From: Chryseobacterium sp. c4a
Lineage (GTDB): Bacteria; Bacteroidota; Bacteroidia; Flavobacteriales; Weeksellaceae
Assembly: GCF_009900745.1 (NCBI RefSeq)
Contig: NZ_WXVU01000014.1
Location: forward strand, 1-64,000
DNA length: 64,000 nt
Direction: 5' to 3'
Shown here: positions 35,189 through 52,317 of the stretch, one piece after another
Layout: every line of letters begins with the position of its first letter
Position numbering within the stretch: the first letter of the stretch is position 1
Translations under genes and position numbers: made by a program
Notes under the pieces: model-generated
The model's database searches: none
Seen by the model: the letters and a program-made list of their open reading frames with translations, nothing else
Told to the model about the DNA's origin: nothing

Positions 35189-35210
35189 ATAATGCCTTAA
35201 TAAAGCCCTG

Positions 35211-35437: not shown

Positions 35438-35446
35438 ATTATTATA

Positions 35447-35454
35447 TAAATTTG
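35447..35454 (+). promoter_or_regulatory. -7 promoter element TAAATTTG of the dcw cluster
   Basis: This is an exact TAnnTTTG match ending 6 bases before the mraZ ATG at 35461, which would make the transcript leaderless or nearly so. Confidence 0.6.
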
Positions 35455-35460
35455 TCCCAA

Positions 35461-35919: not shown

Positions 35920-35962
35920 CTGTAGTTATTAAGGATTTTATTAATAAAAAACACAATTAAGC

Positions 35963-36856
35963 ATGTATCATAACCCCGTTTTGTTGAAGCAGAGTGTAGA
36001 TGATTTGGTGACGAATCCTGACGGAATCTACGTGGACTGCACCTTTGGAGGTGGAGGCCACTCGAGGGAGATTTTGAGCAGACTTTCTGATAAAGGAAAA
36101 CTGTTCAGCTTTGACCAGGATCTGGATGCGCTTAAAAATACAATTGATGACCCTAGATTTACATTGGTAAATCAGAATTTCAGATTTCTGGAAAACTCAT
36201 TACTAATGTATGGAATATCACAAATTGATGGGGTGTTGGCAGACTTAGGTGTTTCATCTCACCAGTTTGATGAAGCAGACCGTGGGTTCTCTACAAGAAG
36301 CAATGCTCCTTTGGATATGAGAATGAACGTAATGCAAAACCTTGATGCCAAAAGAGTGATTAATGAATATGGAGAAGAAGAGTTGGCAGATATCTTCTAT
36401 CACTATGGAGAATTAAGAGAAGCAAGAAAACTGGCTAGAGATATTGTTCACCATAGAAAAACAAAAAGTATAGAAACCACTGAGGATTTGAAAAAGCTTT
36501 TCAGCTACCTTCCACCTCATAAAGTGAATAAATTCTATGCACAACTTTTCCAGGCCGTAAGAATAGAAGTTAATCAAGAGCTTGAAGTATTAAAGGAAAT
36601 GCTGGTTCAGGCTTTCAATGTTTTAAAACCGGAAGGAAGATTAGTCGTTATTTCTTACCATTCTTTAGAAGACCGTTTGGTAAAAAGATTCCTGAAAAAC
36701 GGAATGTTCGAAGGAGAACCGGAAAGAGATATCTACGGAAATTATAAAAAAGCATTTGAGCTAGTAAAGAGCAAAGCAATCATCCCGGATGATAAGGAGA
36801 TTGAAGAAAACTCAAGAGCAAGAAGTGCTAAAATGAGAACAGGAATAAAAGTTTAA
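35963..36856 (+). CDS. rsmH: 16S rRNA C1402 N4-methyltransferase RsmH
   Basis: The 297-residue enzyme (formerly MraW) methylates cytosine 1402 of 16S rRNA. It has the SAM-binding DCTFGGGGHSREIL, the GVLADLGVSSHQFD segment and the C-terminal ISYHSLEDRLVKRF, then SRARSAKMRTGIK. This is full length and canonical, second in the dcw cluster. Confidence 0.97.
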   Translation: MYHNPVLLKQSVDDLVTNPDGIYVDCTFGGGGHSREILSRLSDKGKLFSFDQDLDALKNTIDDPRFTLVNQNFRFLENSLLMYGISQIDGVLADLGVSSHQFDEADRGFSTRSNAPLDMRMNVMQNLDAKRVINEYGEEELADIFYHYGELREARKLARDIVHHRKTKSIETTEDLKKLFSYLPPHKVNKFYAQLFQAVRIEVNQELEVLKEMLVQAFNVLKPEGRLVVISYHSLEDRLVKRFLKNGMFEGEPERDIYGNYKKAFELVKSKAIIPDDKEIEENSRARSAKMRTGIKV

Positions 36857-36953
36857 AAGTGAATGAATAAACCGTCAATAGTAAATTTTAAAAAATTAGA
36901 TTGACCATTGACAACCAAGTGAATTCACGACAAAACAAATTGATTGAATTAAA

Positions 36954-37319
36954 GTGGCAAAAAGAACAACAAATCGCCCCCAGAAAAGACTCACTTTTAT
37001 AGATATTATAAAAGGAAACTTTCTGAATCGTGATGAGATCAAAATACATTACAAGTATTTTCTCTTGTTGTTTGTCCTGATGATGGCTATGATTTACAGT
37101 AACCATCTCGTCAATAAAAAAATAAAAATTGTAAACGCCTTAAAGGAAGAAACAGAAGAATATAAATCGAGAAACGCTTACGCCCAGAGTAAGCTGATCA
37201 AGGTAAAAATGGAATCAGAGCTGGGGAAAGAGGTTGCAAGGGACTCATTGATGACCCTCGAAAACCACCCTCATAAATTGCTAATAAAACTGGACAGTAC
37301 AGATGCAAAAGCAAAATGA
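36954..37319 (+). CDS. FtsL-like small bitopic division protein
   Basis: The 121-residue protein starts at GTG 36954 and has a basic cytoplasmic N-terminus (AKRTTNRPQKRLTFIDIIKG). One membrane helix follows at about 34-51 (YFLLLFVLMMAMIYSNH), then a periplasmic coiled coil with heptad character. Size, topology and position between rsmH and the transpeptidase gene match FtsL, which recruits the division transpeptidase. Sequence identity to FtsL is always low, so the call is by context. The next gene starts 17 bases before this stop. Confidence 0.8.
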   Translation: MAKRTTNRPQKRLTFIDIIKGNFLNRDEIKIHYKYFLLLFVLMMAMIYSNHLVNKKIKIVNALKEETEEYKSRNAYAQSKLIKVKMESELGKEVARDSLMTLENHPHKLLIKLDSTDAKAK

Positions 37320-39294
37320 ATACGATAATAAACGTAAAAAAACGTTACGATGGGGCTACCTCTTTGCAGTGGTAGCTTTGTGCGTGTTTGTAATGTTCTT
37401 GGCAAGGATTGTAATCCTTCAGAATACCAATGTTCAGGAAATTAAGGATGATTACATTAATAAAAATTATCGTGAAGCCACTTTAAAAGCTGCCCGCGGT
37501 AATCTATTTGCCTCCGATGGATCTATTTTGGCAACAACAGTGATGCGCTACGACATCTATCTTGACTTCAAAACGATGAAAGATACGATCTACAGCAACA
37601 ATATCGGGGCATTAACGGATTCTCTGAGCAAAATGTTCGGAAAATCCAGAGGAGAGTTCAGACAAAAATTTGACGAACAAAAGAAAAAGAAAAACCAATA
37701 TTATACTCTGGTAAAAGGTCTTGATTTTGACCAATACGACAGAATCAGACAGTTTCCGATTTTCAAAAGAGGTAAAAACAAAGGCGGTTTTATCGTAGAC
37801 AGAAACTACAAAAGAGAGCTTGCTACTTCAGAAATTGGTGCAGGAACCATCGGTATAGATAATGGTGAGCTTAAATCCGGATTAGAAGGAGCTTTCTCTA
37901 AACACTTAACCGGTACTGACGGAAAAAGATTAGAGCAAAGAATCAATTCATCCCAATGGAAACCAATTGACTTCTGGAAAGTTCAGGAACCGGTAGATGG
38001 AGAAGATGTATACACCACTTTAGACCTTAGAATTCAAGACATTGCACATTCCGCGTTAGAGAAGCAGCTGATGCACTACGAAGCAAAACACGGAACTGTA
38101 ATTGTCATGGAAGTGGAAACCGGAAAAGTACGTGCATTAGTTAATTTAAGAAAAACAGAATCAGGAGATTATGAAGACTCTTACAACTATGCACTAAAAG
38201 ATAATATCGAACCCGGTTCAACCTTCAAAACCATTTCGCTTTTAGCAGCAATGGATGATGGATTCATCGATGAAAACACAACGGTAAATGTAGGAAACGG
38301 AGTTTGGACGTATGCAAAACAAAGAATTTCTGACGGTCATGGAGGAGGAACATACGATATTAGTGATGTTTTAGCCAAATCCAGTAACGTAGGAACAGCT
38401 AAACTGATCACAAAATATTACGCTGAAAAACCTCAGATCTTCCTTGACCACTTAAAACGTTGGAAATTATTTGACAAAATGGACATCGAGCTTCCGGGAA
38501 TCACAAAACCAAAGATCGTAACTCCGGAAAATAAAAGATGGAATGCAGCTACACTAGCTTCTATTTCATTCGGATACTCTTCCAATGTTAACCTGCTTCA
38601 GCTGGCAACCTTCTACAACGGAGTCGCTAACGGTGGTAAAATGCTTAAACCATTATTCATTGATAAGATCATGAAAGATGGAAAAGTAATGTACAAGGCG
38701 AAACCCGAAGTAATGGTAAACAAAATGGCATCTGAGAAGGCCATCAAAATGATGACCAATGCATTAACCAAAGCCGTAGAAAAAGGAACAGGGCGAAGCA
38801 TCTTTACCCCTAACCTGAAAATGGCAGGGAAAACAGGAACGGCAAGGTTTGAATACTGGCTTCCTGGCCCGATGAAATACCGTGCATCATTCGCAGGGTT
38901 CTATCCGGCAGATGCACCCAAATATACATGCTACGTAATGGTAAGTGAGCCCAATACTTCAATTGGATTTTATGGAGGCCCTGTAGCAGCACCGGTGTTT
39001 AAAGAAATTGCAGGAAAAACATTCCTGAAAACACCACAAAATATTGAAAAAGAAATGCTCGTAGACAAAAAGGTAAACCTTAACAAAATGGTGGAACCTA
39101 ATGTGAAAGTAGCAGTCAATGATAAGCAAATGCCCAATGTAGTAGGACTGATTGGTAAAAACGTCATCCCACAATTGGAAAACTTAGGATATCGTGTCGA
39201 TTTTAAAGGCGTTGGAAGAATCAAAGAACAATTCCCATTAGAAGGCACAACGATCAGTAAGAATCAGAGAATATATTTATCTCTGCAGAATTAA
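37303..39294 (+). CDS. ftsI: Division transpeptidase FtsI (PBP3-type) with PASTA domain
   Basis: The 663-residue class B penicillin-binding protein has one N-terminal membrane helix (about 17-38) and a pedestal domain. The transpeptidase motifs are SxxK (EPGSTFKTISLL), SSNV and KTGTARF. A C-terminal PASTA domain follows (MPNVVGLIGKNVIPQLENLG). It crosslinks septal peptidoglycan in the periplasm. Its start overlaps the FtsL-like gene by 17 bases, implying coupled translation. A REP-like element follows before murE. Confidence 0.95.
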   Translation: MQKQNEYDNKRKKTLRWGYLFAVVALCVFVMFLARIVILQNTNVQEIKDDYINKNYREATLKAARGNLFASDGSILATTVMRYDIYLDFKTMKDTIYSNNIGALTDSLSKMFGKSRGEFRQKFDEQKKKKNQYYTLVKGLDFDQYDRIRQFPIFKRGKNKGGFIVDRNYKRELATSEIGAGTIGIDNGELKSGLEGAFSKHLTGTDGKRLEQRINSSQWKPIDFWKVQEPVDGEDVYTTLDLRIQDIAHSALEKQLMHYEAKHGTVIVMEVETGKVRALVNLRKTESGDYEDSYNYALKDNIEPGSTFKTISLLAAMDDGFIDENTTVNVGNGVWTYAKQRISDGHGGGTYDISDVLAKSSNVGTAKLITKYYAEKPQIFLDHLKRWKLFDKMDIELPGITKPKIVTPENKRWNAATLASISFGYSSNVNLLQLATFYNGVANGGKMLKPLFIDKIMKDGKVMYKAKPEVMVNKMASEKAIKMMTNALTKAVEKGTGRSIFTPNLKMAGKTGTARFEYWLPGPMKYRASFAGFYPADAPKYTCYVMVSEPNTSIGFYGGPVAAPVFKEIAGKTFLKTPQNIEKEMLVDKKVNLNKMVEPNVKVAVNDKQMPNVVGLIGKNVIPQLENLGYRVDFKGVGRIKEQFPLEGTTISKNQRIYLSLQN

Positions 39295-39303
39295 AAAGAA
39301 ACA

Positions 39304-39350
39304 GAGTCCCGAAGGGACGACTTAACAAAAAATAGGATAAAGTCCTATTG
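39304..39350. repeat. REP-like double hairpin, copy A (before murE)
   Basis: gagtcccgaagggacga forms a GTCCC/GGGAC hairpin. A second small dyad AGGA/TCCT follows after ttaacaaaaaat. It is closely similar to copy B at 45190 and more distantly to copy C at 48760. Confidence 0.8.
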
Positions 39351-39357
39351 ATAAAAG

Positions 39358-40818
39358 ATGATAATAACAGAATTAGTAAACAGAATCCCAGTAATAGAAA
39401 TCCACGGTGACAACAACCGTGAGGTATCAGAACTGGTGTTCGACAGCAGAAAGGTTACAGAAAACTCTCTTTACATTGCAATGAGAGGAACAGTGGTGGA
39501 TGGACACTCATTCATTGCATCTTCTATTGAAAAAGGAGCAACAACAATCGTTTGTGAAGAATTCCCTGAAACACTGGCAGAAAATGTAACTTATATTAAA
39601 GTGAAAGATTCTGCTAAAGCTTTAGGTCATCTTGCTTCAAACTTCTATGGAAACCCGTCTAAAAAGCTAAAACTGATCGGAGTTACCGGAACCAACGGAA
39701 AAACCTCTGTTTCTACCCTGCTTTTTGATGTTTTCAAGAATTTAGGATATGATTCTGCTTTATTATCAACTGTTGAAATAAGAATTGGAGAAGAAATTAT
39801 TCCAGCTACTCATACCACTCCGGATGTTATTACCATTAATAAAATCTTAGCTGAAGCAGTGGAAAAGGGATGTGAATTCGCTTTCATGGAAGTAAGTTCT
39901 CACGGAATTGCTCAAAACAGAATTGAGGGGTTACACTTCAAAGTAGCAGGATTTACCAACCTTACTCACGATCATTTAGATTATCATAAAACCTTCGAAG
40001 AATATTTAAAAACCAAAAAAAGATTCTTTGATGAATTAGAAGATACAGCCATTGCCATCACCAATATAGATGACAAAAACGGTAGTGTAATGCTTCAAAA
40101 TACAAAGGCTACAAAGAAGTCTTACGCTCTGAAAACAATGGCAGACTACCACGGAAAACTACTGGAAGTTGATTTCAATGGAATGCTGCTGAACTTCAAT
40201 GGGAAAGAATTCTGGACTACATTAACAGGAAAGTTCAATGTATACAACCTATTACTGGTTTTCGGAATTGCAGAAGAACTTGGATTTGCACAGGATGAAA
40301 TTCTTCAGGCCATCAGTAAGCTAAAAAGAGTTTCCGGAAGATTTGAAACCATGAAATCAGACGGTGGAATTTTCTTTATCGTAGACTATGCACACACGCC
40401 GGATGCCTTAGAAAACATTCTGGACAGCATCAATGATATCAGAACCAAAAACGAAAGATTAATCACCGTTTTCGGTTGCGGAGGAGACAGAGATCACTCG
40501 AAAAGACCTGAAATGGGAAATATTGCCACTAAAAAATCAACATTGGCAATCATCACTTCAGATAATCCGAGAACAGAAGATCCGGGACAGATTATCAAGG
40601 AAATTGAAGCAGGCGTTGAACCTCAGAACTTCAGCAAATACACTTCAATTCCGGACAGAAAAGAAGCCATCAAAATGGCGATAAAGTTTGCAGAACCTAA
40701 AGATATTATTCTCGTAGCCGGAAAAGGACACGAAAATTATCAGGAGATAAATGGCGTAAAACACCATTTTGATGACAAAGAAGTAATTAATGAGCTTTGG
40801 AAATTAATGTCCAAGTAA
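39358..40818 (+). CDS. murE: UDP-MurNAc-tripeptide synthetase MurE
   Basis: The 486-residue ligase adds the third stem residue to UDP-MurNAc-Ala-Glu. ATP loop LIGVTGTNGKTSVSTLLFD, FMEVSSHGIAQNR and VDYAHTPDALENIL are visible. The specificity motif SDNPRTEDP (DNPR) indicates meso-diaminopimelate as substrate, as usual for Gram-negatives. The ATG lies 8 bases after copy A of the REP-like element. Confidence 0.96.
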   Translation: MIITELVNRIPVIEIHGDNNREVSELVFDSRKVTENSLYIAMRGTVVDGHSFIASSIEKGATTIVCEEFPETLAENVTYIKVKDSAKALGHLASNFYGNPSKKLKLIGVTGTNGKTSVSTLLFDVFKNLGYDSALLSTVEIRIGEEIIPATHTTPDVITINKILAEAVEKGCEFAFMEVSSHGIAQNRIEGLHFKVAGFTNLTHDHLDYHKTFEEYLKTKKRFFDELEDTAIAITNIDDKNGSVMLQNTKATKKSYALKTMADYHGKLLEVDFNGMLLNFNGKEFWTTLTGKFNVYNLLLVFGIAEELGFAQDEILQAISKLKRVSGRFETMKSDGGIFFIVDYAHTPDALENILDSINDIRTKNERLITVFGCGGDRDHSKRPEMGNIATKKSTLAIITSDNPRTEDPGQIIKEIEAGVEPQNFSKYTSIPDRKEAIKMAIKFAEPKDIILVAGKGHENYQEINGVKHHFDDKEVINELWKLMSK

Positions 40819-40860
40819 ATTGAAAGATTGAATTCATTTAAATGATTTAAAAATTTGATT
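40819..40860. repeat. Iterated AT-rich words before the four-helix-bundle gene
   Basis: ATTGAAAG, ATTGAATT, then ATTTAAATG, ATTTAAAA and ATTTGATT recur with 8-9 base spacing. It belongs to the same class as the octad spacers further along the cluster. Confidence 0.45.
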
Positions 40861-41238
40861 ATGACGAAGAATTTTGAAAATTTTCCAGTATATATCAAAA
40901 GTTTAGATCTTATTGAAAAAGTTTATTCATTTCTTCAAAGTCAAAGTTTTGAAAAAGAATTTGAATTTAATAACCAGATAAAAAGAGCGAGTTTTTCAAT
41001 TAGCAACAATATTGCAGAAGGCTCAGAATATAATAATAACAGACAATTTATTAAATATTTAAAAATTGCAAAAGGCAGCTGCGCTGAAGTAAGAAGTATG
41101 CTAATTGTAAGTAAAAGATTAAAATTAGGTGATCAAAATAAAGCAGAAGAAATCATTACCCTTTCGAGAGAAGTTTCTTCAAACATATCAAACTTTATTA
41201 AGTATTTAAGTGAAAATATTGAAAAACCCAATCTTTAA
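40861..41238 (+). CDS. Four-helix-bundle protein inserted in the dcw cluster
   Basis: The 125-residue helical protein matches the four-helix-bundle family first seen in 23S rRNA intervening sequences. Recognisable parts are FPVYIKSLDLIEKVYSFLQ, QIKRASFSISNNIAEGSE, then the FIKYLKIAKGSCAEVRSML block. It is not a cell-division gene by family and interrupts murE-mraY, which are neighbours elsewhere. The start is the ATG at 40861. AT-rich iterated words lie on both sides. The function of the family is unknown. Confidence 0.85.
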   Translation: MTKNFENFPVYIKSLDLIEKVYSFLQSQSFEKEFEFNNQIKRASFSISNNIAEGSEYNNNRQFIKYLKIAKGSCAEVRSMLIVSKRLKLGDQNKAEEIITLSREVSSNISNFIKYLSENIEKPNL

Positions 41239-41281
41239 ATCTTTAAATAAATTAAATTTTTAAATAATAAAAAACAGAAAC
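41229..41281. repeat. Octad words after the four-helix-bundle gene
   Basis: AATCTTTA occurs twice in tandem, followed by AATAAATT and an AT run. The first copy overlaps the last codons and stop of the gene. Confidence 0.5.
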
Positions 41282-42523
41282 ATGCTATACTATCTATACG
41301 AATATCTAACCGACCATGGAATTCACGTTCCGGGATTAGGAATGTTGAAATACATCTCCTTCCGTGCCGGAATGGCTGTGCTATTCTCTTTAATTATTGC
41401 TCTTGTCTACGGAAAAAGAGTGATCAATTACCTGAGAACAAAACAAATGGGTGAATTAGTCCGTGATCTTGGATTGGACGGCCAAAAGCAAAAAGAAGGA
41501 ACTCCTACCATGGGAGGTCTTATCATCATTTTGGCTACCATTATTCCTGTATTGTTGTTTACAAGAATAACAAACGTATACATTGTCTTACTGCTGGTTT
41601 CAATGTTTTGGATGGGAGCTATCGGGTTCCTTGATGATTATTTAAAGAAAATCAAGAAAAATAAAGACGGATTAAGCGGTAAATTCAAAATTGTAGGACA
41701 AGTTGGTTTAGGCTTAATTGTCGGAATCACAATGTATTTCCACCCAGACATTACCGTTAAAAGAAAATATGCTGATGCAAAAGTGGTTAATAGAAACAAC
41801 GTAGAGCAAAACTTCATGCCTACAGAAAAAATCACAGTTTCTACAGTACCATTCGCGAAAAACAATGAGTTTGATTACAGCGGAATCCTGTTTTGGATGA
41901 ATGAAAAAGATGCCCATGAGTGGGCATGGATTGTCTTTATCCCTATCGTGATCTTCATTGTAACAGCCGTTTCCAATGGAGCCAATATCACAGACGGAAT
42001 AGACGGTCTCGCCGCAGGAACCAGTGCCATCATACTGCTCACCCTTGCGCTTTTCGCCTACCTTTCAGGGAACATCATCTTCGCAGACTATCTGAATATC
42101 ATGTTCCTGCCGAATATGGGAGAAACCACCATTTTCGCAGTCGCAATGGTAGGTGCCGTCATTGGATTCTTCTGGTATAACACCTATCCTGCCCAGGTTT
42201 TCATGGGAGATACAGGAAGTTTGATGCTGGGCGGAGTAATTGCCGTTTTAGCCATTATTTTAAGAAAAGAATTACTGATTCCTGTTTTATGCGGAATCTT
42301 CCTGATTGAGAATCTATCTGTAATGCTTCAGGTAATCGTTTTCAAATACAGAAAGAAAAAATACGGGCTGGAATATGCTCAAAACAATAGACTATTCAAA
42401 ATGTCACCATTACACCACCATTATCAGAAAGAAGGATTTCACGAAAGTAAAATCGTAAACAGAATGATTATCATTGGAGTAATACTGGCAATTGTTTGTC
42501 TGATCACCTTAAAAATGAGATAA
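41282..42523 (+). CDS. mraY: Phospho-MurNAc-pentapeptide transferase MraY
   Basis: The 413-residue polytopic enzyme makes lipid I by moving phospho-MurNAc-pentapeptide onto undecaprenyl phosphate. It shows [58 protein letters not shown] and the [11 protein letters not shown] loop. It is longer than the 360-residue E. coli enzyme because of an insert at about residues 155-200, common in Bacteroidota. Confidence 0.97.
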
Positions 42524-42524
42524 A

Positions 42525-42582
42525 ATTAAAAGCTGTAAGCAATAAGCTTAAAGCTTAAAGCCTATAGCATAAAGCTTTTATA
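42525..42582. repeat. Heptad-periodic spacer before murD
   Basis: GC dinucleotides fall at 42532, 42539, 42546, 42553, 42560, 42567 and 42574, seven in a row at exactly 7-base spacing, inside words like aaGCTTA. It nearly fills the mraY-murD gap. Confidence 0.75.
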
Positions 42583-42584
42583 AT

Positions 42585-43922
42585 ATGAAAATAGTTGTTT
42601 TAGGAGGAGGAGAAAGCGGATGTGGAGCTGCTTATTTGGCCAAAAAGAAAGGTCTGGAAGTATTTCTTTCAGATAAAGGAGCCATTAAAGATAACTATAA
42701 GCAGTTTCTTACCGAAAATGGAATTGAATTTGAAGAAGGAAACCACGATGAAGAAAGGATTTTAAATGCCGATTGGATCGTAAAAAGCCCGGGAATCCCG
42801 AAAAAAGCAGAGATCATCCACAAAATTCATGAAAAAGGAATAAGACTTTCCTCTGAAATTGAATTCGCTTCTGAATTTACAGATGCTAAGATCATTGCCA
42901 TTACAGGAAGCAACGGAAAAACAACCACCACTTCATTGATCTATTATATCCTGAAAAACGATGGATTAAACGTAGGCTTAGGAGGAAACATTGGATATAG
43001 CTTTGCAAAACAGGTTGCAGATGAAAACCATGAATATTATGTACTGGAAGTAAGTTCTTTTCAGTTAGATGATATTCAGAATTTCAGACCTTATATTTCT
43101 TTATTGTTGAATCTGTCTCAGGATCACCTGGATCAGTATAACTACAACTATGAAGAATATGCATTGGCAAAATTCAGAATCACTGAAAACCAGGAAAATG
43201 ATAACTTCTTCATCTACAATAAAGATGACGAAATGAGCAAAAACCTGCTTGAAAAGTTAGAAATAAAAGCGAAGATGATTCCTTTCTCCACAAAGGAACA
43301 GCTTCCTGAAGGAGGTTTTGTAAGTGACGATCAGATTGTGGTAAAATTGAAGGATGAATTCTCCATGAAAGTTGAAGAATTATCCCTACTTGGGAACCAT
43401 AATGTTGCCAATAGCTTAGCAGCATCAATTGCTGGTAAGATATTGAAGATCAATAATGAAAGTATCAGACATTCATTAATGACATTTCAGGCAGTAGAAC
43501 ACAGATTGGAATTCGTAACTGAAACAGATGGTGTAAAATACATCAACGACAGTAAGGCAACCAATGTGAATGCAACTTACTACGCCTTAGAAAGTATGAA
43601 AACTCCAACCGTATGGATCGTTGGAGGATTAGATAAAGGAAATGACTATACTGAAATTGAAGATTTAGTCAAAAGAAAAGTAAAGGCAATTGTTTGTCTT
43701 GGAGTTGATAATAAGAAGATTATAGATTTCTTCAAAGATAAAAAGGAGTTTATTTATGATACTTCAAGCATGGAAGAAGCCGTGAAAATATCAAAATCAC
43801 TGGCCAAAAAAGGAGACACCGTTCTACTTTCTCCATGTTGTGCAAGCTTTGATTTATTCAAAAGCTATGAAGACAGAGGTCGTCAGTTTAAAGAGCAGGT
43901 ATTAAAAGCCAATAGCCATTAG
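42585..43922 (+). CDS. murD: UDP-MurNAc-alanine--D-glutamate ligase MurD
   Basis: The 445-residue ligase has the N-terminal GGGESGCGAAYLAKKKG, ATP loop IAITGSNGKTTTTSLIYY, EVSSFQLDDIQNF, NLSQDHLDQYN and YINDSKATNVNATYYAL. The C-terminus LLSPCCASFDLFKSYEDRG is typical. It adds D-Glu to UDP-MurNAc-L-Ala in the cytoplasm. The final codons lie inside a heptad-periodic word array, so coding and repeat sequence overlap. Confidence 0.97.
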   Translation: MKIVVLGGGESGCGAAYLAKKKGLEVFLSDKGAIKDNYKQFLTENGIEFEEGNHDEERILNADWIVKSPGIPKKAEIIHKIHEKGIRLSSEIEFASEFTDAKIIAITGSNGKTTTTSLIYYILKNDGLNVGLGGNIGYSFAKQVADENHEYYVLEVSSFQLDDIQNFRPYISLLLNLSQDHLDQYNYNYEEYALAKFRITENQENDNFFIYNKDDEMSKNLLEKLEIKAKMIPFSTKEQLPEGGFVSDDQIVVKLKDEFSMKVEELSLLGNHNVANSLAASIAGKILKINNESIRHSLMTFQAVEHRLEFVTETDGVKYINDSKATNVNATYYALESMKTPTVWIVGGLDKGNDYTEIEDLVKRKVKAIVCLGVDNKKIIDFFKDKKEFIYDTSSMEEAVKISKSLAKKGDTVLLSPCCASFDLFKSYEDRGRQFKEQVLKANSH

Positions 43923-43940
43923 CCAAAAGCAAATAGCATT
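43906..43940. repeat. Heptad-periodic spacer at the murD-ftsW junction
   Basis: GC at 43908, 43915, 43922, 43929 and 43936, exact 7-base period, in words AGCCAAT, AGCCATT, AGCCAAA and AGCAAAT. The first two units encode the last residues of MurD. Confidence 0.7.
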
Positions 43941-43944
43941 AATT

Positions 43945-45183
43945 ATGGACGAGCAGAATACAGAAAACAGATTTGAATTTCTAAAGGGCGATAAAGTACT
44001 TTGGATGGTCATTCTTGTGATCTCCATTTTCTCTATTTTCCCTGTTTACTCTGCAAGTTCAAACCTGGAATATATTGTGAATAACGGAACCACTACAGGC
44101 CACGTTATCAAACACATGTTCTTCGTTCTCTTAGGATTAGCCATTATGCGCCTTGTAGGAACGATAAAATATGAATACATCGGAAAGCTCAGCAGTATTC
44201 TGTTGGGACTGATGATTGTCTTATTGATTGTTACGATGTTTACCGGACAAACCATTGACGGAGCCAGTGCCTCAAGATGGTTAAAAATTCCGGGAACACC
44301 AATATCATTCCAGCCGTCATCATTTGCCTTCCTGATGCTGATTATCTATTTATGCAGATATCTCACCAAGAAGATCACAAGAGAAAGACTCCCTATAGAG
44401 AATATCATGTATATTTTCGGGCCTATTCTTCTTGTTTTTGTATTAGTGGCAAAAGACAACGGTTCCACGGCATTAATGATTCTGATGGTTTCAGTAATTG
44501 TTTTGATTGTCGGGCAGCTTCACTGGAAATACATTGCAGGTTTTATTTCAGCCTCATTTGTAGCCATTGTCTTTTTCCTATTGATTGCATTGAATACCAA
44601 TATGATTGGAGGAAACCGTGTTCACACATGGATGAGCCGTATTGAAACATTTACATCAAGCAAAGCAAAATCAGCAGATACCGATGATGAAAGTGTAAAA
44701 GCCAAAAATTATCAGGTAATGCAGGCTAAAGCTGCTATTGTACATGGTGGAATTACCGGAATGGGGCCAGGAAAAAGTGCATTAAAACAAATGCTTCCAC
44801 AATCTGCCTCCGACTTTATCTTCGCTGTTATTGTAGAAGAATATGGAGTTATTGGAGCAGCATTCCTGATCAGTCTCTATCTGATTATGATGATAAGGAT
44901 TGTGATGATTGCCAGTAAAATGCCAGCCTTCTTCGGATCGTTGCTGGTGCTCAGTCTCGGAGTAATGATTTTTATACAGCTATCGGTAAACATTGCCGTT
45001 GCTGTCAATCTGATCCCGGTAACAGGACAACCATTACCATTGATTAGTTATGGGGGAACCTCAATGTTGGTAACCTATTTACAGTTAGGAATTATCTTAA
45101 ATATAAGCTCAAGAATTCAGATCTATGATGAAGAAGGAATGGGCAAAAAACAAAGCATAGCGGAAATAAACGATATCGCATAA
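43945..45183 (+). CDS. ftsW: Septal peptidoglycan polymerase FtsW
   Basis: The 412-residue SEDS protein has about ten membrane helices and signature segments such as GASASRWLKIPG, SFAFLMLIIYLCRYL, AKDNGSTALMIL, DFIFAVIVEEYGVIGA and LIPVTGQPLPLISYGGTSML. It polymerises septal glycan together with FtsI. It is followed by copy B of the REP-like element. Confidence 0.96.
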   Translation: MDEQNTENRFEFLKGDKVLWMVILVISIFSIFPVYSASSNLEYIVNNGTTTGHVIKHMFFVLLGLAIMRLVGTIKYEYIGKLSSILLGLMIVLLIVTMFTGQTIDGASASRWLKIPGTPISFQPSSFAFLMLIIYLCRYLTKKITRERLPIENIMYIFGPILLVFVLVAKDNGSTALMILMVSVIVLIVGQLHWKYIAGFISASFVAIVFFLLIALNTNMIGGNRVHTWMSRIETFTSSKAKSADTDDESVKAKNYQVMQAKAAIVHGGITGMGPGKSALKQMLPQSASDFIFAVIVEEYGVIGAAFLISLYLIMMIRIVMIASKMPAFFGSLLVLSLGVMIFIQLSVNIAVAVNLIPVTGQPLPLISYGGTSMLVTYLQLGIILNISSRIQIYDEEGMGKKQSIAEINDIA

Positions 45184-45189
45184 ACCCAA

Positions 45190-45236
45190 AGAGTCCCAAG
45201 GGACGATTTAACAAAAAATCGGACACAGTCCTATTA
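45190..45236. repeat. REP-like double hairpin, copy B (before murG)
   Basis: gagtcccaagggacga, ttaacaaaaaat and GGACACAGTCC repeat the layout of copy A with only a few changes. The murG ATG follows at 45243. Confidence 0.8.
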
Positions 45237-45242
45237 ATTAAA

Positions 45243-46346
45243 ATGAACAAAAAATTAAAAGTAATACTATCAGGTGGAGGAACAGGAGGACACATCTTCC
45301 CTGCCATCGCTATCGCTGACGAAATCAAAAAAAGATTTCCGGATGCAGAATTTTTGTTCATTGGTGCCAACGGAAAAATGGAAATGGAAAAAGTTCCACA
45401 AGCAGGCTACAAAATTGAAGGAATTGATATCGCCGGATTCAACAGAGGAAACTTATTATCCAACTTAGGACTTCCTTTTAAGATTCTGAAAAGCTTATCC
45501 AGATCTAAAGACATCATCAAAGACTTCAAACCGGATGTTGCTATAGGAACAGGAGGATTTGCAAGTGGCCCTGCTTTATATGAAGCTACCAAATTGGGAG
45601 TTCCTGTTTTTATTCAAGAACAGAATGCCTATGCTGGAGTAACCAACAAAATTTTAAGTAAAGCAGCTAAAGCCATATTTACAGCCTATCCGAAAGTCGC
45701 AGGATTTCCTGCAGAAAAAATAAAATTCCTGGGAAATCCGATTCGTTCCACAATTATTACGGGAATGCAGGACACCACTCAGGCAAAACAAAAAATGGGA
45801 TTACATAAAGATAAACTTACCATTCTTTCGGTAGGTGGATCTTTAGGCTCCAGAACATTAAACAATGCCTGGGAAGCTCATTTAAAAGAAATTGTAGACA
45901 AAGACTATCAGCTCATCTGGCAGACAGGAAAGCTTGATTATAAAGATATTATTGAAAAAACAAAAGATACTGTAACCAGAAATATTCTGATCCGTGAATT
46001 TATCAAAGACATGGAACTTGCATATTCTGCAGCAGATATCATCGTTTCAAGAGCGGGAGCCATTGCCATTTCAGAGTTGGCAGTAGCACAAAAACCGGTC
46101 TTATTGGTACCATTCCCTTTTGCAGCAGAAGACCACCAAACCAAAAATGCCATGAACCTGGTGGAAAAAAATGCAGCAAGAATGGTAAAAGACTCTGAAA
46201 TGCAGGAAAAATTCTGGAATACATTATCAGAAATCTGCGAAAATGAAAATGTTAGAAAAGAAATGTCCGACAATCTAAAGTATTTTGCTAAACCTGATGC
46301 TACCAAAGAGATTGTAGATGAGATATTTAAAGTGATTAATAGATAA
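45243..46346 (+). CDS. murG: Lipid II synthase MurG
   Basis: The 367-residue glycosyltransferase adds GlcNAc to lipid I at the inner membrane. It shows the N-terminal loop LSGGGTGGHIFPAIAIADE, the GFASGPALYEA region, SVGGSLGSRTLN and the UDP-GlcNAc site SRAGAIAISELAV followed by AAEDHQTKNA. It is full length and canonical, 8 bases from murC. Confidence 0.97.
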   Translation: MNKKLKVILSGGGTGGHIFPAIAIADEIKKRFPDAEFLFIGANGKMEMEKVPQAGYKIEGIDIAGFNRGNLLSNLGLPFKILKSLSRSKDIIKDFKPDVAIGTGGFASGPALYEATKLGVPVFIQEQNAYAGVTNKILSKAAKAIFTAYPKVAGFPAEKIKFLGNPIRSTIITGMQDTTQAKQKMGLHKDKLTILSVGGSLGSRTLNNAWEAHLKEIVDKDYQLIWQTGKLDYKDIIEKTKDTVTRNILIREFIKDMELAYSAADIIVSRAGAIAISELAVAQKPVLLVPFPFAAEDHQTKNAMNLVEKNAARMVKDSEMQEKFWNTLSEICENENVRKEMSDNLKYFAKPDATKEIVDEIFKVINR

Positions 46347-46354
46347 AGGAAGAA

Positions 46355-47713
46355 ATGAAGAACTTAGAAACATATCAAAACTTTTACTTCGTTGGAATCG
46401 GAGGGATAGGAATGAGTGCCTTGGCGCGTTATTTCCATGCGTCCGGAAAAAAAGTATTAGGCTATGATAAAACCAACACCAAACTTACTCAAAATCTGAT
46501 GCAAGAAGGTATTGATATTGTTTTCGAAGATCTTATTGATAAAAGAATAACTTCTCTTCAAAAAGAAGATACACTGATCATCTACACTCCAGCCATCAAA
46601 ACGCTTGGAATTTTAGATTACTTCAATCACAATCAGTTTGAAGTTTTAAAACGTGCTAAAGTTTTAGGATTAATCACTGAGAACACAGATTGTATCGCTG
46701 TAGCAGGAACTCATGGGAAGACGACAACTTCTACCCTTGTTTCTCACTTATGTAAAGAAGCAAATCTTCCTTTTTCATGCTTTTTAGGCGGTATTTCTGA
46801 AAACTTTAAGTCAAACTTTCTTTATAACGGTTCTACCTATTCTGTAGTGGAAGCAGATGAGTATGACAGAAGCTTCCTAAACCTTTCTCCGGATTGGGCT
46901 GTGGTAACTTCTACAGATGCAGACCATTTGGATATTTATGGAGATAAAAGCCATATTGAAGAAGGTTTCAGACAGTTTGCAGCCTTAGTTCCTGAAGACA
47001 AACAACTATTCGTAAGAAAAGGTGTTGAAATCGGAAGAGGACATCAAACTTACGCTGTTAATGAAAAGGCAGATTATTACTCAGACAACCTGAGAATGGA
47101 TCATGATAAGATTTATTTTGACTTCCACACCCCAACAGAAACTATAAAAGATTTCGTTTGGGAGATCCCAGGAATCCATAATGTAGAAAATGCTACTGTA
47201 GCATTAGCTATTTTGCACAATTTGGGCGCAGATTTTGATACGCTGAAAAAGGCAATTGCCAATTTTAAGGGAATTAAAAGAAGATATACCAAACATTTTT
47301 ACGAAAATGGTAAAATTTATATAGATGATTATGCTCACCACCCAACAGAAATCAATGCGGTAATGAGCTCTATCAAAACATTTTATCCTAATAAAAAGCT
47401 ATTGGTAGCCTTCCAGCCTCACCTGTTCAGCAGAACAAGAGATTTTGCAGACGGATTTGCAGAAAGCCTGAGCAATGCGGATGAACTGATCTTATTGGAT
47501 ATCTATCCAGCTAGAGAACTTCAGGAGAATTTTGAAGGAATCACTTCAAGCTGGCTGCTGGAAAAAGTAACATTAGACAAAAAAGAAGTATCAACTTTAT
47601 CCGATGCTTTTGAAAAAATAAAAGAAAAAGATTTTGATATCCTTCTCACCGTAGGAGCCGGAAATATAGACACCCTATATGACCCGATCTGCGAATGGCT
47701 AAATAAATTGTAA
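46355..47713 (+). CDS. murC: UDP-MurNAc--L-alanine ligase MurC
   Basis: The 452-residue ligase has N-terminal FVGIGGIGMSALARYFHASG and ATP loop VAGTHGKTTTSTLVSH, then VVEADEYDRSFL and DDYAHHPTEINAV. It starts the stem peptide by adding L-Ala to UDP-MurNAc. It is followed by an octad-periodic spacer and ftsQ; there is no ddl gene between them as in many Proteobacteria. Confidence 0.97.
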   Translation: MKNLETYQNFYFVGIGGIGMSALARYFHASGKKVLGYDKTNTKLTQNLMQEGIDIVFEDLIDKRITSLQKEDTLIIYTPAIKTLGILDYFNHNQFEVLKRAKVLGLITENTDCIAVAGTHGKTTTSTLVSHLCKEANLPFSCFLGGISENFKSNFLYNGSTYSVVEADEYDRSFLNLSPDWAVVTSTDADHLDIYGDKSHIEEGFRQFAALVPEDKQLFVRKGVEIGRGHQTYAVNEKADYYSDNLRMDHDKIYFDFHTPTETIKDFVWEIPGIHNVENATVALAILHNLGADFDTLKKAIANFKGIKRRYTKHFYENGKIYIDDYAHHPTEINAVMSSIKTFYPNKKLLVAFQPHLFSRTRDFADGFAESLSNADELILLDIYPARELQENFEGITSSWLLEKVTLDKKEVSTLSDAFEKIKEKDFDILLTVGAGNIDTLYDPICEWLNKL

Positions 47714-47720
47714 ACAGTAA

Positions 47721-47778
47721 TAATGTATTTACGTATTCATGAATACATTTTACATAAATACATGAATACAAAAAATGT
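47721..47778. repeat. Octad-periodic spacer before ftsQ
   Basis: Words ATGTATTT, ACGTATTC, ATGAATAC, ATTTTAC, ATAAATAC and ATGAATAC start at 47723, 47731, 47739, 47747, 47754 and 47762, an 8-base period with one 7-base step. The centre can fold as GTATTCATGAATAC. Confidence 0.65.
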
Positions 47779-48756
47779 ATGAAAAATAAGTACAGAATAT
47801 TAAAAATTGTTATCACGGTAATCATCCTAGGGTTGTTACTGAGTTTCTCGTTGAAGAGATTCGGTGGCCAGAAGATTACGGATAATAAGATTTCTGTAAA
47901 AATGAATGAAAGAACTCCCGTTTACTTTGTTGATGAAAAAGATATCAGAGAAATTGTAAGAAAGGAGAATCCGTCAGGAAAAGTAGGAGATCTTAATATT
48001 CCGGTATTAGAAAAAAAGATCAACTCCCTTCCAGCTGTTGACAGTGCCAATGTATATCTGAATCTAAACGGAAAACTTAATCTGGATATCAAACAGAGAG
48101 TTCCTGTTTTCAGACTCAATAAAGATGGGAAAGACTTTTATGTGGATGAAAAAGGTATTGAGTTTCCTATTTCAAGAACCTATTCACACCCTTGTATGTT
48201 GGTCACAGGAAATGTACAACCAGATGAGTATGAAAAACTGGCAGAATTGGTTGGAAAAATTGATAATGATGACTTCAGTAAGAAGTTTTTTATCGGAATT
48301 TCAAAAACTAAAGACAATTACAGTCTTCTGACCAGTGAAGGAAACTATAAAGTGGAAATTGGAGATCTTGACAATATTGATTTTAAAGTAAAAGGATTTA
48401 AAACATTTGTGGAAAAATATCTGGTATATCAGGATCCTCAGAAATATAATATGGTTTCTGTAAAATATCAGAATCAGATTGTAACCACTCTCAATCCGCA
48501 CTTCAAGGAAAACGACAGTATCCTGAAGGCTGGTAAATTAGAAATGGCAAAAGCTCCGGCACTCACAGCTGCAGCCAAAAAAACAGAGGCAAAGCCCAAA
48601 ATAGCCGAAACAAAAAAAACAAACTCAACTTCAGTAAAACCGAAAGAGAGCACAAAACCGAAAACACAGGCAAAAGAAGCTAAGAAAACAGAGAAAAAAA
48701 CAGCGGCCCCGGTACAGTCCAAACCAAAGCCGAAACCAAAGGTGAAAATAGAATAA
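47779..48756 (+). CDS. ftsQ: Cell division protein FtsQ with basic Pro/Lys tail
   Basis: The 325-residue protein has one N-terminal membrane helix (about 7-24). A POTRA-like region follows, with DEKDIREIVRKENPSGKVGD and VYLNLNGKLNLDIKQRVPVF, then the FtsQ beta domain. From about residue 265 it ends in a 60-residue low-complexity Lys/Ala/Pro/Thr tail (KTEAKPKIAETKK, SKPKPKPKVKIE). The position between murC and ftsA and the topology support FtsQ, which links early and late divisome proteins. The tail is unusual compared with proteobacterial FtsQ. Confidence 0.88.
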   Translation: MKNKYRILKIVITVIILGLLLSFSLKRFGGQKITDNKISVKMNERTPVYFVDEKDIREIVRKENPSGKVGDLNIPVLEKKINSLPAVDSANVYLNLNGKLNLDIKQRVPVFRLNKDGKDFYVDEKGIEFPISRTYSHPCMLVTGNVQPDEYEKLAELVGKIDNDDFSKKFFIGISKTKDNYSLLTSEGNYKVEIGDLDNIDFKVKGFKTFVEKYLVYQDPQKYNMVSVKYQNQIVTTLNPHFKENDSILKAGKLEMAKAPALTAAAKKTEAKPKIAETKKTNSTSVKPKESTKPKTQAKEAKKTEKKTAAPVQSKPKPKPKVKIE

Positions 48757-48759
48757 AAA

Positions 48760-48806
48760 AGAGTCTTAAAAGGGCTATGTAACACAAAGCAGGATGTAGT
48801 CCTGTA
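48760..48806. repeat. REP-like element, degenerate copy C (before ftsA)
   Basis: gagtcttaaaagggc and caggatgtagtcctg keep the layout of copies A and B, but the first dyad has decayed. The second stem is now CAGGA/TCCTG. Confidence 0.6.
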
Positions 48807-48840
48807 TGGAAAAAGTAGAAAAAATCAAATCGATATAAAA

Positions 48841-50226
48841 ATGGAAAATCAAGAGTATTCAGTAGGTCTGGACATCGGGACAACAAAGATAGTCGCGATT
48901 GTCGGAAGAAGGAATGCACACGGGAAAATAGAAGTTCTCGGTGTAGGAAAAGCTAAAAGTCTTGGTGTTCATAAAGGTATTGTGAATAATATTTCACAAA
49001 CAATTAATTCAATCAAGGCTGCAGTATCCGAGGCACAATCCAGTGCCGGGGTTCCTATCCGCAAAGTTACGGTAGGTATTGCAGGAAAACACATTCGTTC
49101 TCTGCAGCACTCCGATTATATTATGCGTGAACATCCGGATAAATTCATCACAGATGATGATATTGAAGCATTAAAAGATCAGGTCAAGAAACTGGTTATG
49201 CTTCCTGGAGAAGAAATTATCCATGTACTTCCACAAGAATATAAAGTGGATTCCGAAGGTGAAATTCAAGAGCCGGTAGGAATGCACGGAAAACGTTTAG
49301 AAGCTAACTTCCACGTTGTAGTTGGGCAAATGGGAAGCATCCGTAATATTGCAAGATGCGTTCGTGAAGCCGGTCTAGAAATGGAAGCCCTCACTTTAGA
49401 ACCATTAGCCTCTTCAGAAGCTGTTCTTACCAAAGAAGAGAAAGAAGCCGGAGTAGCCATTGTAGACATTGGAGGGGGAACCACAGATATTGCTATCTTC
49501 AAAGACAATATCATCCGTCATACCTGCGTAATCCCTTACGGAGGCGGAATTATTACGGAAGATATCAAAGAAGGATGCTCCATTATTGAAAAACATGCTG
49601 AACAATTGAAAGTAAAATTCGGTTCGGCTGTGCCTGAATTAGAAAAAGACAGTACTTTTGTAACAATTCCGGGGCTTCATGGGCGACCAGATAAAGAAAT
49701 CTCTTTAAAAACCCTTGCACAAATCATCAATGCAAGAGTAGAAGAAATTTTAGAAATGGTAAACACCGAATTAAAAGCATACGGAGCCTTTGAACAAAAG
49801 AAAAAGCTGATTGCCGGAATCGTTCTTACAGGGGGTGGATCAAACTTGAAGCATCTTAGACAGCTGGCCAACTATACAACAGGTTTTGACAGCAGAATCG
49901 GTTTTGCGAATGAATATATCGCCAACGATAAAAATCAGTACCTGAAAGGCCCTGAATTTGCTACTTCTATTGGGTTACTGATGGAGAGTTTGAAGATCAG
50001 GGATAAAAAACAGACTGTTGATGATATAGAAGAAATCATCAAAGAGCAGACTAAGCCTGAAGTGGCTCCTGTACAAGCAGAAACTGTTCAACCCGTTCAG
50101 CCGACCGCTACTCCTGTTCAGGAACAACCGGTTGCCAATGAAAAGCAGGAAAACAGAAAAGCGAGATTGACCTTTGGCCAATCGCTTATGGAAAAAGTAA
50201 AAAAATTCTTTGAAGAAGTAGAGTAA
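48841..50226 (+). CDS. ftsA: Cell division protein FtsA
   Basis: The 461-residue actin-like ATPase has phosphate loops VGLDIGTTKIVAIVGRR and VDIGGGTTDIAIF, plus VLTGGGSNLKHLRQLA. It tethers FtsZ to the membrane. The C-terminal end RLTFGQSLMEKVKKFFEEVE contains the amphipathic membrane-targeting helix. A Gln/Pro/Val-rich linker (about 400-440) separates this helix from the core. Confidence 0.96.
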   Translation: MENQEYSVGLDIGTTKIVAIVGRRNAHGKIEVLGVGKAKSLGVHKGIVNNISQTINSIKAAVSEAQSSAGVPIRKVTVGIAGKHIRSLQHSDYIMREHPDKFITDDDIEALKDQVKKLVMLPGEEIIHVLPQEYKVDSEGEIQEPVGMHGKRLEANFHVVVGQMGSIRNIARCVREAGLEMEALTLEPLASSEAVLTKEEKEAGVAIVDIGGGTTDIAIFKDNIIRHTCVIPYGGGIITEDIKEGCSIIEKHAEQLKVKFGSAVPELEKDSTFVTIPGLHGRPDKEISLKTLAQIINARVEEILEMVNTELKAYGAFEQKKKLIAGIVLTGGGSNLKHLRQLANYTTGFDSRIGFANEYIANDKNQYLKGPEFATSIGLLMESLKIRDKKQTVDDIEEIIKEQTKPEVAPVQAETVQPVQPTATPVQEQPVANEKQENRKARLTFGQSLMEKVKKFFEEVE

Positions 50227-50228
50227 AT

Positions 50229-50310
50229 TATAAATGGTGAATGATAAGCGATAAACGATCTTTTCCTTATCAATTATCATCAATCAATTATCAATTATAA
50301 TTATTAAAAG
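50229..50310. repeat. Heptad-periodic spacer with inverted arms before ftsZ
   Basis: GAT recurs at 50243, 50250 and 50257, and TCA at 50270, 50277, 50284 and 50291, each with 7-base period. The words GATAAGC/GATAAAC are roughly complementary to TTATCAA/TTATCAT, so the spacer can fold on itself. Confidence 0.65.
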
Positions 50311-50317
50311 TATAGTT

Positions 50318-52222
50318 ATGGAAAATATAGGTACACAAGGATTTTCATTTGACCTACCAAAAGGAAATTCATCCATCATAAAAGTAATCGGTGTAGGAGG
50401 CGGAGGAAACAACGCATTAAAACATATGTACGAAAAAGGGATCCACGGAGTTGATTTCGTAATCTGTAATACAGACGCGCAAACCCTGGATAATAACCCT
50501 GTTGCCAATAAAGTTCAATTAGGAACTTCCATCACGGAAGGTCTTGGAGCTGGTGCAGATCCTGAAGTAGGAGAAAAATCTGCAATTGAAAGTATTGAAG
50601 ATATTAAAGCTGCTATGGGTCAGAACACGAAAATGGTGTTCATCACTGCCGGAATGGGTGGTGGTACAGGTACCGGAGCTGCCCCTGTCATTGCTAAAGT
50701 AGCAAAAGATATGGGAATCTTAACCGTAGGTATTGTGACCGTGCCTTTCAGTTTTGAAGGAAAAAGAAGACTAGAACAAGCCGAAAACGGACTTGATAAA
50801 TTAAAAAATAATGTTGACTCCTTAATTGTGATCAACAATGATAAACTAAGACAGCAATTTGGAAACCTTGGATTCAAACAAGGGTTTTCTAAAGCCGATG
50901 AAGTATTAGCTAATGCCGCTAAAGGAATGGCAGAAGTTATTACAGGTTACTTTGATGTAAACATCGACTTTAGAGATGCTAAATCTGTGCTTCAAAACTC
51001 TGGTACTGCTCTAATGTCTACCGGTACTGCTTCAGGTGAAAATAAAGCTGAAGAAGCCGTAAGAAAAGCATTAGATTCTCCGTTATTGAATGACAACAAA
51101 ATTACAGGTGCTAAAAATGTACTATTGTTGATCAGAAGTGGCGCGGAAGAAGTTACCATGGATGAAATCGGAATCATTATGGATCACATCCAGAAAGAAG
51201 CTGGAAATACAGCCGATATTATTTTTGGAGTAGGTGCTGATGAAGAATTAGGAGATGCAGTAAGCGTTCTTGTTATCGCAACAGGATTTTCTAATGACAA
51301 TAAGAAGTTTTCAGGCCCAACAGAAAAGATTAGAATCAGTCTTAATGACAATTTAGAGACCCCAAAATCCTCTCCTTTTAAAACAAGAGAAGAAAGAGAG
51401 TCTTCGCCAGAAATAACGCATGATTTCGGCGGAAAAAGCCTGTTCAGACTGGATGATGAAGATCATGATACCCCGTTCAATGTGACTTCTACCGAAAAAA
51501 AAATGATTATTGAGGAAGAAGAGATCAGAACAGAGATCAAATTCTTTGATAAAGAAGAAAATACAATCAATACTCCTGAACAAGGGTGGAGAAACGAAGA
51601 TGAGCAAGAAGAATACAGCTTACTTTCTATTGAAGAAGAGGAAGATCCAAATGATTTGGAAATTCAGTCTTTCTCTTTTGATTTTGACAATAAAAAGGAA
51701 GACCCTCAATCTGGAAATGTATTCAACAACAGCGCTTCACAAGAAAAACCTGTTGAATTCAATTTCTTCGTTAATGAACCTATCAGAAATGAGCCAAAAA
51801 CAGATTACGGACAGCCTAAGGCGGAATTTAATACGCCAACAAATGCTGCTGTAGCAGAGCCTGCTCAAAAAATTGAGACGTTCTACCAAAAAGAAGAACC
51901 AAAAGTTGAAACAAGACCAGCTTTTGAAAACAAAACAGAAATCGAAACTCCTAAAACTGAAGAATCAGAATTCACTTTCGTGAACAAAACGATTGATCAG
52001 GACAGAGTAATCGAAAGAAGAAATAAATTAAAAGAATTCAATTCACGTTATCAAAGCTTTGATAGCACAAGCGAATTCGAATCTATTCCTGCGTTCAAGA
52101 GAAAAAATATCTCTATTGACGGAACCAACGCATCAGACCAAAACATCAACACGTATATGTCTGATAACAATGGCTCTATGCAGATCAGAGAAAACAGATT
52201 TTTAAATAAAGACGTAGACTAA
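50318..52222 (+). CDS. ftsZ: Cell division GTPase FtsZ with long C-terminal linker
   Basis: The 634-residue tubulin homolog has nucleotide-binding VIGVGGGGNNALKHM, the GGGTGTGAAPVIAKVAKD loop and NIDFRDAKSVL. The GTPase core ends near residue 330. A long acidic, Glu/Asn-rich linker follows to about 585. The conserved peptide IPAFKRKNI that binds FtsA lies at about 590-598 but is followed by a further 36 residues, so it is not terminal. It forms the division ring. Confidence 0.97.
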   Translation: MENIGTQGFSFDLPKGNSSIIKVIGVGGGGNNALKHMYEKGIHGVDFVICNTDAQTLDNNPVANKVQLGTSITEGLGAGADPEVGEKSAIESIEDIKAAMGQNTKMVFITAGMGGGTGTGAAPVIAKVAKDMGILTVGIVTVPFSFEGKRRLEQAENGLDKLKNNVDSLIVINNDKLRQQFGNLGFKQGFSKADEVLANAAKGMAEVITGYFDVNIDFRDAKSVLQNSGTALMSTGTASGENKAEEAVRKALDSPLLNDNKITGAKNVLLLIRSGAEEVTMDEIGIIMDHIQKEAGNTADIIFGVGADEELGDAVSVLVIATGFSNDNKKFSGPTEKIRISLNDNLETPKSSPFKTREERESSPEITHDFGGKSLFRLDDEDHDTPFNVTSTEKKMIIEEEEIRTEIKFFDKEENTINTPEQGWRNEDEQEEYSLLSIEEEEDPNDLEIQSFSFDFDNKKEDPQSGNVFNNSASQEKPVEFNFFVNEPIRNEPKTDYGQPKAEFNTPTNAAVAEPAQKIETFYQKEEPKVETRPAFENKTEIETPKTEESEFTFVNKTIDQDRVIERRNKLKEFNSRYQSFDSTSEFESIPAFKRKNISIDGTNASDQNINTYMSDNNGSMQIRENRFLNKDVD

Positions 52223-52225
52223 AAT

Positions 52226-52315: not shown

Positions 52316-52317
52316 AA

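Follow-up and report, generated by a model that had tools for sequence, protein, structure and literature searches.

Why should GC dinucleotides stand at exact seven-base steps in the short spacers of a cell-division operon? In the window, the whole 64-kb stretch of DNA analysed here, which belongs to a 5.41-Mb Chryseobacterium genome in 56 contigs, a step of 7 gives four chains of at least four GC dinucleotides: seven words from 42532, before murD, five from 43908, at the murD-ftsW junction, and two chains of five, from 9722 and 9804, before secA. Three of these had been described in the original prediction, including the one that reaches the coding end of murD (the 43908 run overlaps the murD stop, and the open frame ends at 43922), and all three are found as described, the 9722 chain being an addition. 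The seven-base period with other words that it placed before ftsZ is likewise present, as a TRF array of period 7 (TTATCAA) at 50267-50304. Control steps from 3 to 14 yield one chain at 12, one at 14, which is a subset of the 42532 run, and zero at all others. A chance origin of the GC chains is rejected by these counts of zero or one and by the lag-7 excess over shuffled sequence described below. The earlier claim of a strict phase without constant sequence holds for the phase and not for a wholly free sequence, since direct reading gives a loose unit of about AAGCNNN; the array 5′ of murD reads AAGCTGT AAGCAAT AAGCTTA AAGCTTA AAGCCTA TAGCATA AAGC. In the whole genome, a pattern of four successive AGC(N4) units matches 30 times, overlaps included, and its reversed control 5 times. 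The closest named matches of MurD, among the best 80 of 266, are those of C. jejuense, C. contaminans and C. pennae, at 98-99% identity. At 181-245, TRF reports a tandem array with a 17-bp unit, 3.8 copies and 95% matches.

As its check, the original prediction had proposed the autocorrelation of intergenic regions at lag 7 against shuffled controls, and it was to be given up if no genome-wide excess appeared; the intergenic excess is present. In 42 kb of intergenic DNA drawn from 445 kb, with stretches partly chosen around matches, GC..GC self-matches reach z = 11.8 at lag 7, 11.1 at lag 14 and 8.4 at lag 21, and in the unselected region C1:140-540 kb GC alone gives 51 matches at lag 7 versus 30.4 expected (z = 3.8), with lag 18 at z = 4.2. 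The period was also sought for any word, by requiring a 21-base self-match of at least 15 at a given lag and comparing with 20 shuffles. Among 256 unselected spacers (47 kb, from C1:140-540 kb), 18 are positive at lag 7, against 2.0 expected and a shuffle maximum of 5, which is the largest excess of all lags; lag 14 is found in 14 (1.4 expected) and lag 21 in 6 (1.6 expected), and lesser excesses stand at lag 10 (7 vs. 2.0, maximum 4), lag 20 (6 vs. 1.5, maximum 4) and lag 11 (5 vs. 2.2). In all 500 spacers, partly chosen around matches, the counts are 41 versus 4.0 at lag 7, 10 versus 3.8 at lag 10 and 10 versus 4.0 at lag 11. Helical phasing at about 10-11 bp is rejected, because the modest excess at lags 10 and 11 is far below that at lag 7 and leaves it without power to explain the arrays; an effect of coding or composition is rejected as well, since lag 7 is not raised in coding DNA (2 of 500 pieces, 1.6 expected). 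The heptad words vary between spacers (AAGCNNN, CTTCCAN, TTAGATG, AGATNNN, AATGAGT, GAAATCT), and their tandem 7-nt units exceed chance, a feature of heptanucleotide simple sequence repeats.

The positive spacers are biased in position: 32 of 343 codirectional spacers carry the period (3.3 expected), as do 6 of 78 convergent (0.4) and 3 of 79 divergent ones (1.2). When the 41 heptad spacers are divided into perfect arrays (20-21 of 21 matching) and degenerate ones, the perfect arrays comprise 4 convergent and 2 codirectional spacers, versus 2 convergent, 30 codirectional and 3 divergent for the degenerate (p = 0.0028 over the four convergent and codirectional cells). The four convergent ones among the six perfect arrays lie at C1 89594, 135956, 488521 and 492474. 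With the same test, one genome from another family of the order gives 7 of 88 spacers (0.8 expected, maximum 2), others of the order 2/38, 1/40 and 1/64 (five genomes pooled), two genomes from other orders of the class 2/66 (0.2 expected) and 0/35, two from other classes of the phylum 0/33 and 0/44, and E. coli K-12 0/117. The lag-7 signal thus reaches Chryseobacterium and at least one further family of its order, and the samples beyond these are too small for a wider taxonomic statement. Perfect heptad arrays of varying length, with the words AAGCAAT, AAGCCAT and TAGCGAT, are found within the genus. One genome (G003) holds very long perfect TAGCGAT arrays, for example at C1:146-457; its TAGCGAT pattern has 263 matches in the genome versus 232 for the reversed control, and with a control nearly as frequent, part of that signal is symmetric.

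The simplest reading of such repeats is that they are neutral scars of slippage, a unit of 7 bases being suited to polymerase slippage, which then decay and survive where there are neither promoters nor codons. The prominence of lag 7 and its multiples, the perfect arrays that differ in length within the genus, the different orientation of perfect and degenerate arrays, and the polymerase-footprint idea, as cited in PMC4692102, all agree with it. As the whole account it is nevertheless rather unlikely, for reasons that lie in the folding, the arms and the conservation of the arrays.

Spacers are defined as the DNA between the longest open frames, without a gene finder, and those listed here are all read on the + strand. 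The genes rsmH (mraW), murE, mraY, murD, murG, murC, ftsA, ftsZ, secA and nuoD score above their NCBIfam cut-offs (nuoD with 461.5 bits vs. 459.35); ftsW and ftsI have NCBIfam matches below the cut-off, and ftsQ has no match at 1e-20. From the gene order in the dcw operon, we take four genes to be ftsW, ftsI, ftsQ and ftsL. At mraY-murD, the spacers of 41 genomes follow one of three themes, set by eye, namely A (GC heptads, a label also given to two degraded spacers, L124 and L129), B (TTTAATC/GATTTAA) or C (GTAAAAA/TTTTACA), with another theme once.

In the window, the mraY-murD spacer (42524-42584) holds a theme-A array, with its seven GC words from 42532, and is predicted to form a single imperfect hairpin (z −1.68) whose one stem, at −14.9 kcal/mol, sets GC against GC across the arms. 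As GC is self-complementary, the GC of the left arm faces that of the right arm at every seventh base. The murD-ftsW array (43908-43937, five GC words) begins within the last codons of murD and has a weak predicted fold (z −0.71, computed on 43895-43944); with −0.83 for the array upstream of nuoD, the theme-A arrays alone fold only modestly better than shuffles. The spacer upstream of secA (9718-9842), which contains both runs of five, reaches z −3.33. Predicted hairpins also fill the ftsA-ftsZ spacer (50227-50317, z −2.23), with GATNNNN heptads on the left and TTATCAN heptads on the right, the spacer 3′ of murC (47714-47778, z −1.95), of theme-C type with a TRF period of 8, and the spacer 3′ of rsmH (36857-36953, z −2.11), of a theme E that in relatives consists of degenerate AGTGAAT heptads. 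The short spacer 3′ of murE (40819-40854) has theme-B words (GATTTAA), as called by eye. At the junction 3′ of rsmH in L133, L135 and L137, another palindromic repeat (CCTCCTTTGGAGGGGTGGCG...GACGGGGTGGTT) is seen within the spacer. In one further genome (L176, from G072), a theme-A hairpin stands immediately 5′ of a tRNA-like sequence, and seven places in this genome give that match; from the one copy viewed, rRNA operons are a guess.

A different, non-heptad element, family F, is a dispersed double hairpin (GTCCC-GAA-GGGAC followed by AGGA..TCCT) present at three dcw operon junctions: 5′ of murE (39295-39357), where its z of −4.51 is the best fold among nine spacers tested, between ftsW and murG (45184-45242, z −2.40) and, in an F-like form recognized by eye, 5′ of ftsA (48757-48840). 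By eye, about 30 of 41 genomes have a family F or F-like spacer 5′ of murE. Family F has an Rfam match to Acido-Lenti-1 below threshold. The Rfam search, which covered 35000-53500 of the window, returned three matches, none at gathering, the best being RF01687 with 24.5 bits against a gathering score of 37. No intrinsic terminator, defined as a G+C stem followed by a T run, was called in 42524-42584, 43908-43937 or 9718-9842; the 9722 run, inspected by eye, leads into T6 and is a doubtful case of a terminator. The units of these three spacers, read directly, do not include TAACTGA.

Better folding is a feature of heptad spacers as a group. Among codirectional spacers of 40-150 bp, after removal of the 58 of 191 that are terminator-like, the heptad-positive ones have a median fold z of −2.38, with 11 of 15 at or below −2, compared with −0.79 and 33 of 118 for the others (p = 5e-4). 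Within its own spacer, 14 of 35 heptad segments find a complement at the top 10% level of shuffles, versus 3.5 expected, and 21 fall below that level; over all 35 segments, the self-complement test gives p = 7e-4.

The reading that we prefer, and which may well be correct, is that imperfect fold-back hairpins with heptad arms fill spacers between codirectional genes, having started out as heptanucleotide repeats that were then retained because they fold. The phased GC words would then be part of an imperfect stem-loop occupying the spacer between codirectional genes, and each arm would be a run of 7-nt units in which the intervening bases may vary or mismatch. Slippage would have supplied the repeats, and folding of the transcript at the spacer would have retained them, as the position bias, conservation, balanced arms and folding suggest. 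The hairpins would probably act on the mRNA between cistrons, where they may shield the junction or serve its processing and keep a short unpaired stretch around the start codon that follows. In the themes read by eye, the predicted stems stop a few bases 5′ of the next ATG, which makes an open start codon and a set-off upstream cistron a natural guess.

The balance of the arms is best seen upstream of nuoD, where an array with GCARTAA units on the left, a centre and GCCTANA units on the right, and with AATGC/GCATT closing it, was matched in 57 of 173 genomes of the genus by a pattern that fixes some GC columns; arrays that are lost, diverged or replaced are missing from sets found in this way (nuoD 57/173; murD 27/173). 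In the 45 arrays parsed, four left units go with three right ones, or three with two, allowing 1-base indels, and no further length state is seen among the 45. Some genomes are represented twice among them, and in a set of 44 arrays 34 are distinct. Chopped mechanically into sevens, these 34 give 24 at 4/3, 7 at 3/2, 2 at 3/3 and 1 at 2/2, the three odd ones being read as 1-base deletions in the left arm. If two units are taken as the centre, the arms become 3/3 or 2/2, and one further array (G177) is, by eye, a rearranged 2/2. Parsimony on a tree built from 38 flank sequences requires 6 changes of the length state, against a shuffled mean of 7.4, and this state has no tree signal. Six changes mean that the change recurs, or that exchange of whole spacers has spread fewer events; the coupled arm lengths could go back to one or two events spread in this manner.

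Conservation of the arrays was compared with that of synonymous sites, leaving out the GC columns fixed by the patterns. In 27 nuoD arrays of equal length (27 of 34 loci, two being dropped for a 1-base indel and five with two-unit arms being unmatched by the pattern), the 10 remaining GC columns show 1 change in all, the 35 free non-GC columns 1.83 changes each and 54 four-fold sites of nuoD 4.56 each (p = 0.008 for GC vs. non-GC, 9e-6 for GC vs. four-fold and 3e-5 for non-GC vs. four-fold). If the indel-bearing loci are kept, the values are 0.92, 2.17 and 4.78 changes per column, with p = 0.13 for GC versus non-GC and 7e-5 for GC versus four-fold sites. A coarser run on the murD arrays (16 of 27 loci) gives 0.40, 1.28 and 2.32, with p = 0.036 for GC versus non-GC. 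Since columns depend on one another and a pattern was used to find the loci, these p-values serve as guides. Constraint on the arrays relative to synonymous sites is well supported; that GC columns evolve more slowly than their neighbours rests on the cleaner alignment. Among the theme-A arrays of murD, found in 27 of 173 genomes by a pattern that fixed the middle two GC words, seven words all at step 7 occur in 22, seven words with one 6-base step in 3 and six words in 2.

These data weigh against scars of slippage, as GC columns are nearly frozen while four-fold sites change freely, seven GC words are kept in 25 of 27 murD arrays (the middle two fixed by the pattern), the arms are coupled and the spacers fold better. 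The earlier inference of slippage acting on 7-mers fits the origin of the arrays, to which the perfect arrays of differing length elsewhere in the genus point. The murD array does not look like the product of slippage still under way, given the count of seven in those 25 arrays and, at nuoD, GC words that hardly change and arms whose lengths change together.

The original prediction also inferred binding arrays for a multimeric protein; in the form of sites on DNA or RNA whose GC, or other core, is recognized at every seventh base, this reading is unlikely. It would account for conserved GC with freer neighbours, and it draws on the putative nuoD stem, in which each unit could pair at four positions (G, C, T, A) and almost all units retain the same mismatches (A.A in 77/86, A.C in 85/86). 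No compensatory base changes were found when they were looked for in theme A at the nuoD locus, and conserved mismatches without compensation suit recognition by a protein at least as well as pure pairing. A simple array of sites, however, would not give coupled arm lengths, and unrelated cores stand at the same place across junctions and species, so that a different protein would be needed for each theme. The conserved mismatches speak for binding, but the hairpin better explains the phase, the balanced arms and the interchangeable words.

The interchange of words is most evident at mraY-murD. On a tree of nine dcw genes, the theme of this spacer changes 18 times in the 41 genomes, compared with 19.8 when shuffled (22% of shuffles give 18 or fewer), and is without tree signal; at murD-ftsW, 11 changes versus 16.2 (0.6%) leave some. 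The nearest genome pairs that differ in mraY-murD theme share about 93% dcw identity. Of 80 named loci, 78 were labelled by best similarity to the 41-genome set (in the other two the mraY end was not located), and among these theme B is found 28 times, C 27, A 21 and others twice. The likeness of spacers tracks that of genes in theme A (rho 0.79) and less so in B (0.26) and C (0.35), a mixture of inheritance and exchange. Unrelated spacers thus lie between the same genes, incongruent with the gene tree, as in switched intergenic regions. Transfer of long tracts with the genes is rejected as the cause, since identity of the flanks is independent of theme: partial r is 0.09 and 0.08 in the nearest 60 bp and −0.06 to 0.10 beyond, and a control with the labels of the other junction gives −0.10 to 0.12. 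An r of about 0.5 in the upstream flank of murD-ftsW is an artefact of murD ending at theme-dependent places and was not used.

One exchange, that of sp. ZHDP1, was followed in detail and has a recombination breakpoint in its flank. It shares its 86-bp theme-C spacer base for base with sp. ON_d1, although the flanking coding DNA of the two is 84.5% identical; C. mucoviscidosis and C. gambrini, to which it is closely related (about 96-97%), carry theme B. Its mraY ends in 29 bases equal to those of sp. ON_d1, with 7 of the last 25 differing from C. mucoviscidosis, whereas in the preceding 211 bases 37 of 40 informative sites side with C. mucoviscidosis and 3 with sp. ON_d1; murD begins with 23 bases that these species have in common. 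To judge from this sequence comparison, the case fits recombination over a tract of about 110-140 bp and does not fit simple insertion. On the hairpin reading, the fold outweighs the words, and hence a junction can pass from one heptad family to another; this would happen when the spacer of a related species enters by recombination in tracts of about 0.1 kb. The different versions that related species hold at one junction suggest that structure, and not exact sequence, is kept.

Small mobile palindromic elements (MITE or REP-like) inserted at gene junctions are the least probable alternative: theme-A copies are dispersed within genomes, the C1 spacer (C-type) has matches away from murD (among the matches listed, near-full-length ones at 72-78% and short ones up to 97%) and junctions may be empty or filled (1 bp vs. 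59 bp at ftsW-murG, for instance), but spacers are swapped from stop to start codon and not added, the clear case of exchange took along 25-29 bases of the neighbouring gene, and the full-length C1 matches of at least 87% (at least five), among the matches listed, all lie at murD.

Bacteria are known to have an excess of heptamers (PMC4692102; PMC4679880); the over-representation of heptamer repeats in their genomes was reported in 2007, as cited in both papers, and has no established role. The heptanucleotide repeats of Xanthomonas and Nostoc, with the word GGGAATC (PMC4692102), resemble the present arrays in their 7-base units with a conserved core and free positions, their intergenic location, mostly codirectional or convergent and rarely divergent, and their frequent inverted pairs with potential stem-loops; they differ in having one G-rich, quadruplex-forming word, whereas Chryseobacterium uses many AT-rich words that are interchangeable at one junction. 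The TAACTGA repeats of Beggiatoaceae, Cyanobacteria and some Bacteroidetes, including Elizabethkingia, are likewise intergenic heptamer arrays, often just 5′ of start codons, with indels in 7-nt steps between strains and occasional other heptamers mixed in; unlike the Chryseobacterium arrays, they have one main word in direct repeats, and the excerpts of that source do not describe a balanced-arm hairpin (PMC4679880). Switched intergenic regions, or horizontal regulatory transfer, are described upstream of genes in lineages of S. aureus and, as cited in that paper, E. coli (PMC5890482). There too, a given gene pair can be separated by alternative spacers that are not homologous and disagree with the gene trees, whereas the Chryseobacterium spacers lie within an operon, vary across named species and have a similar architecture. 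Heptad repeats and spacer switching are therefore both known, and what looks new is their combination, in which many words share a similar architecture, the arms are coupled and one word can stand for another at a junction. Among the papers listed in searches of the open-licence literature, none deals with heptad hairpins in Chryseobacterium, which is weak evidence of novelty.

Tentatively, such intercistronic hairpins may form a class in Bacteroidia, set apart by 7-nt periodicity, balanced arms, free words and the trading of spacers through tracts of about 0.1 kb, which would make the operon a mosaic of interchangeable structural spacers. With orthologous arrays in dozens of species, a conserved phase, coupled arms and swaps of words, selection versus slippage becomes directly testable. 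If the hairpin reading is true, a core cell-division operon can swap a spacer without its genes.
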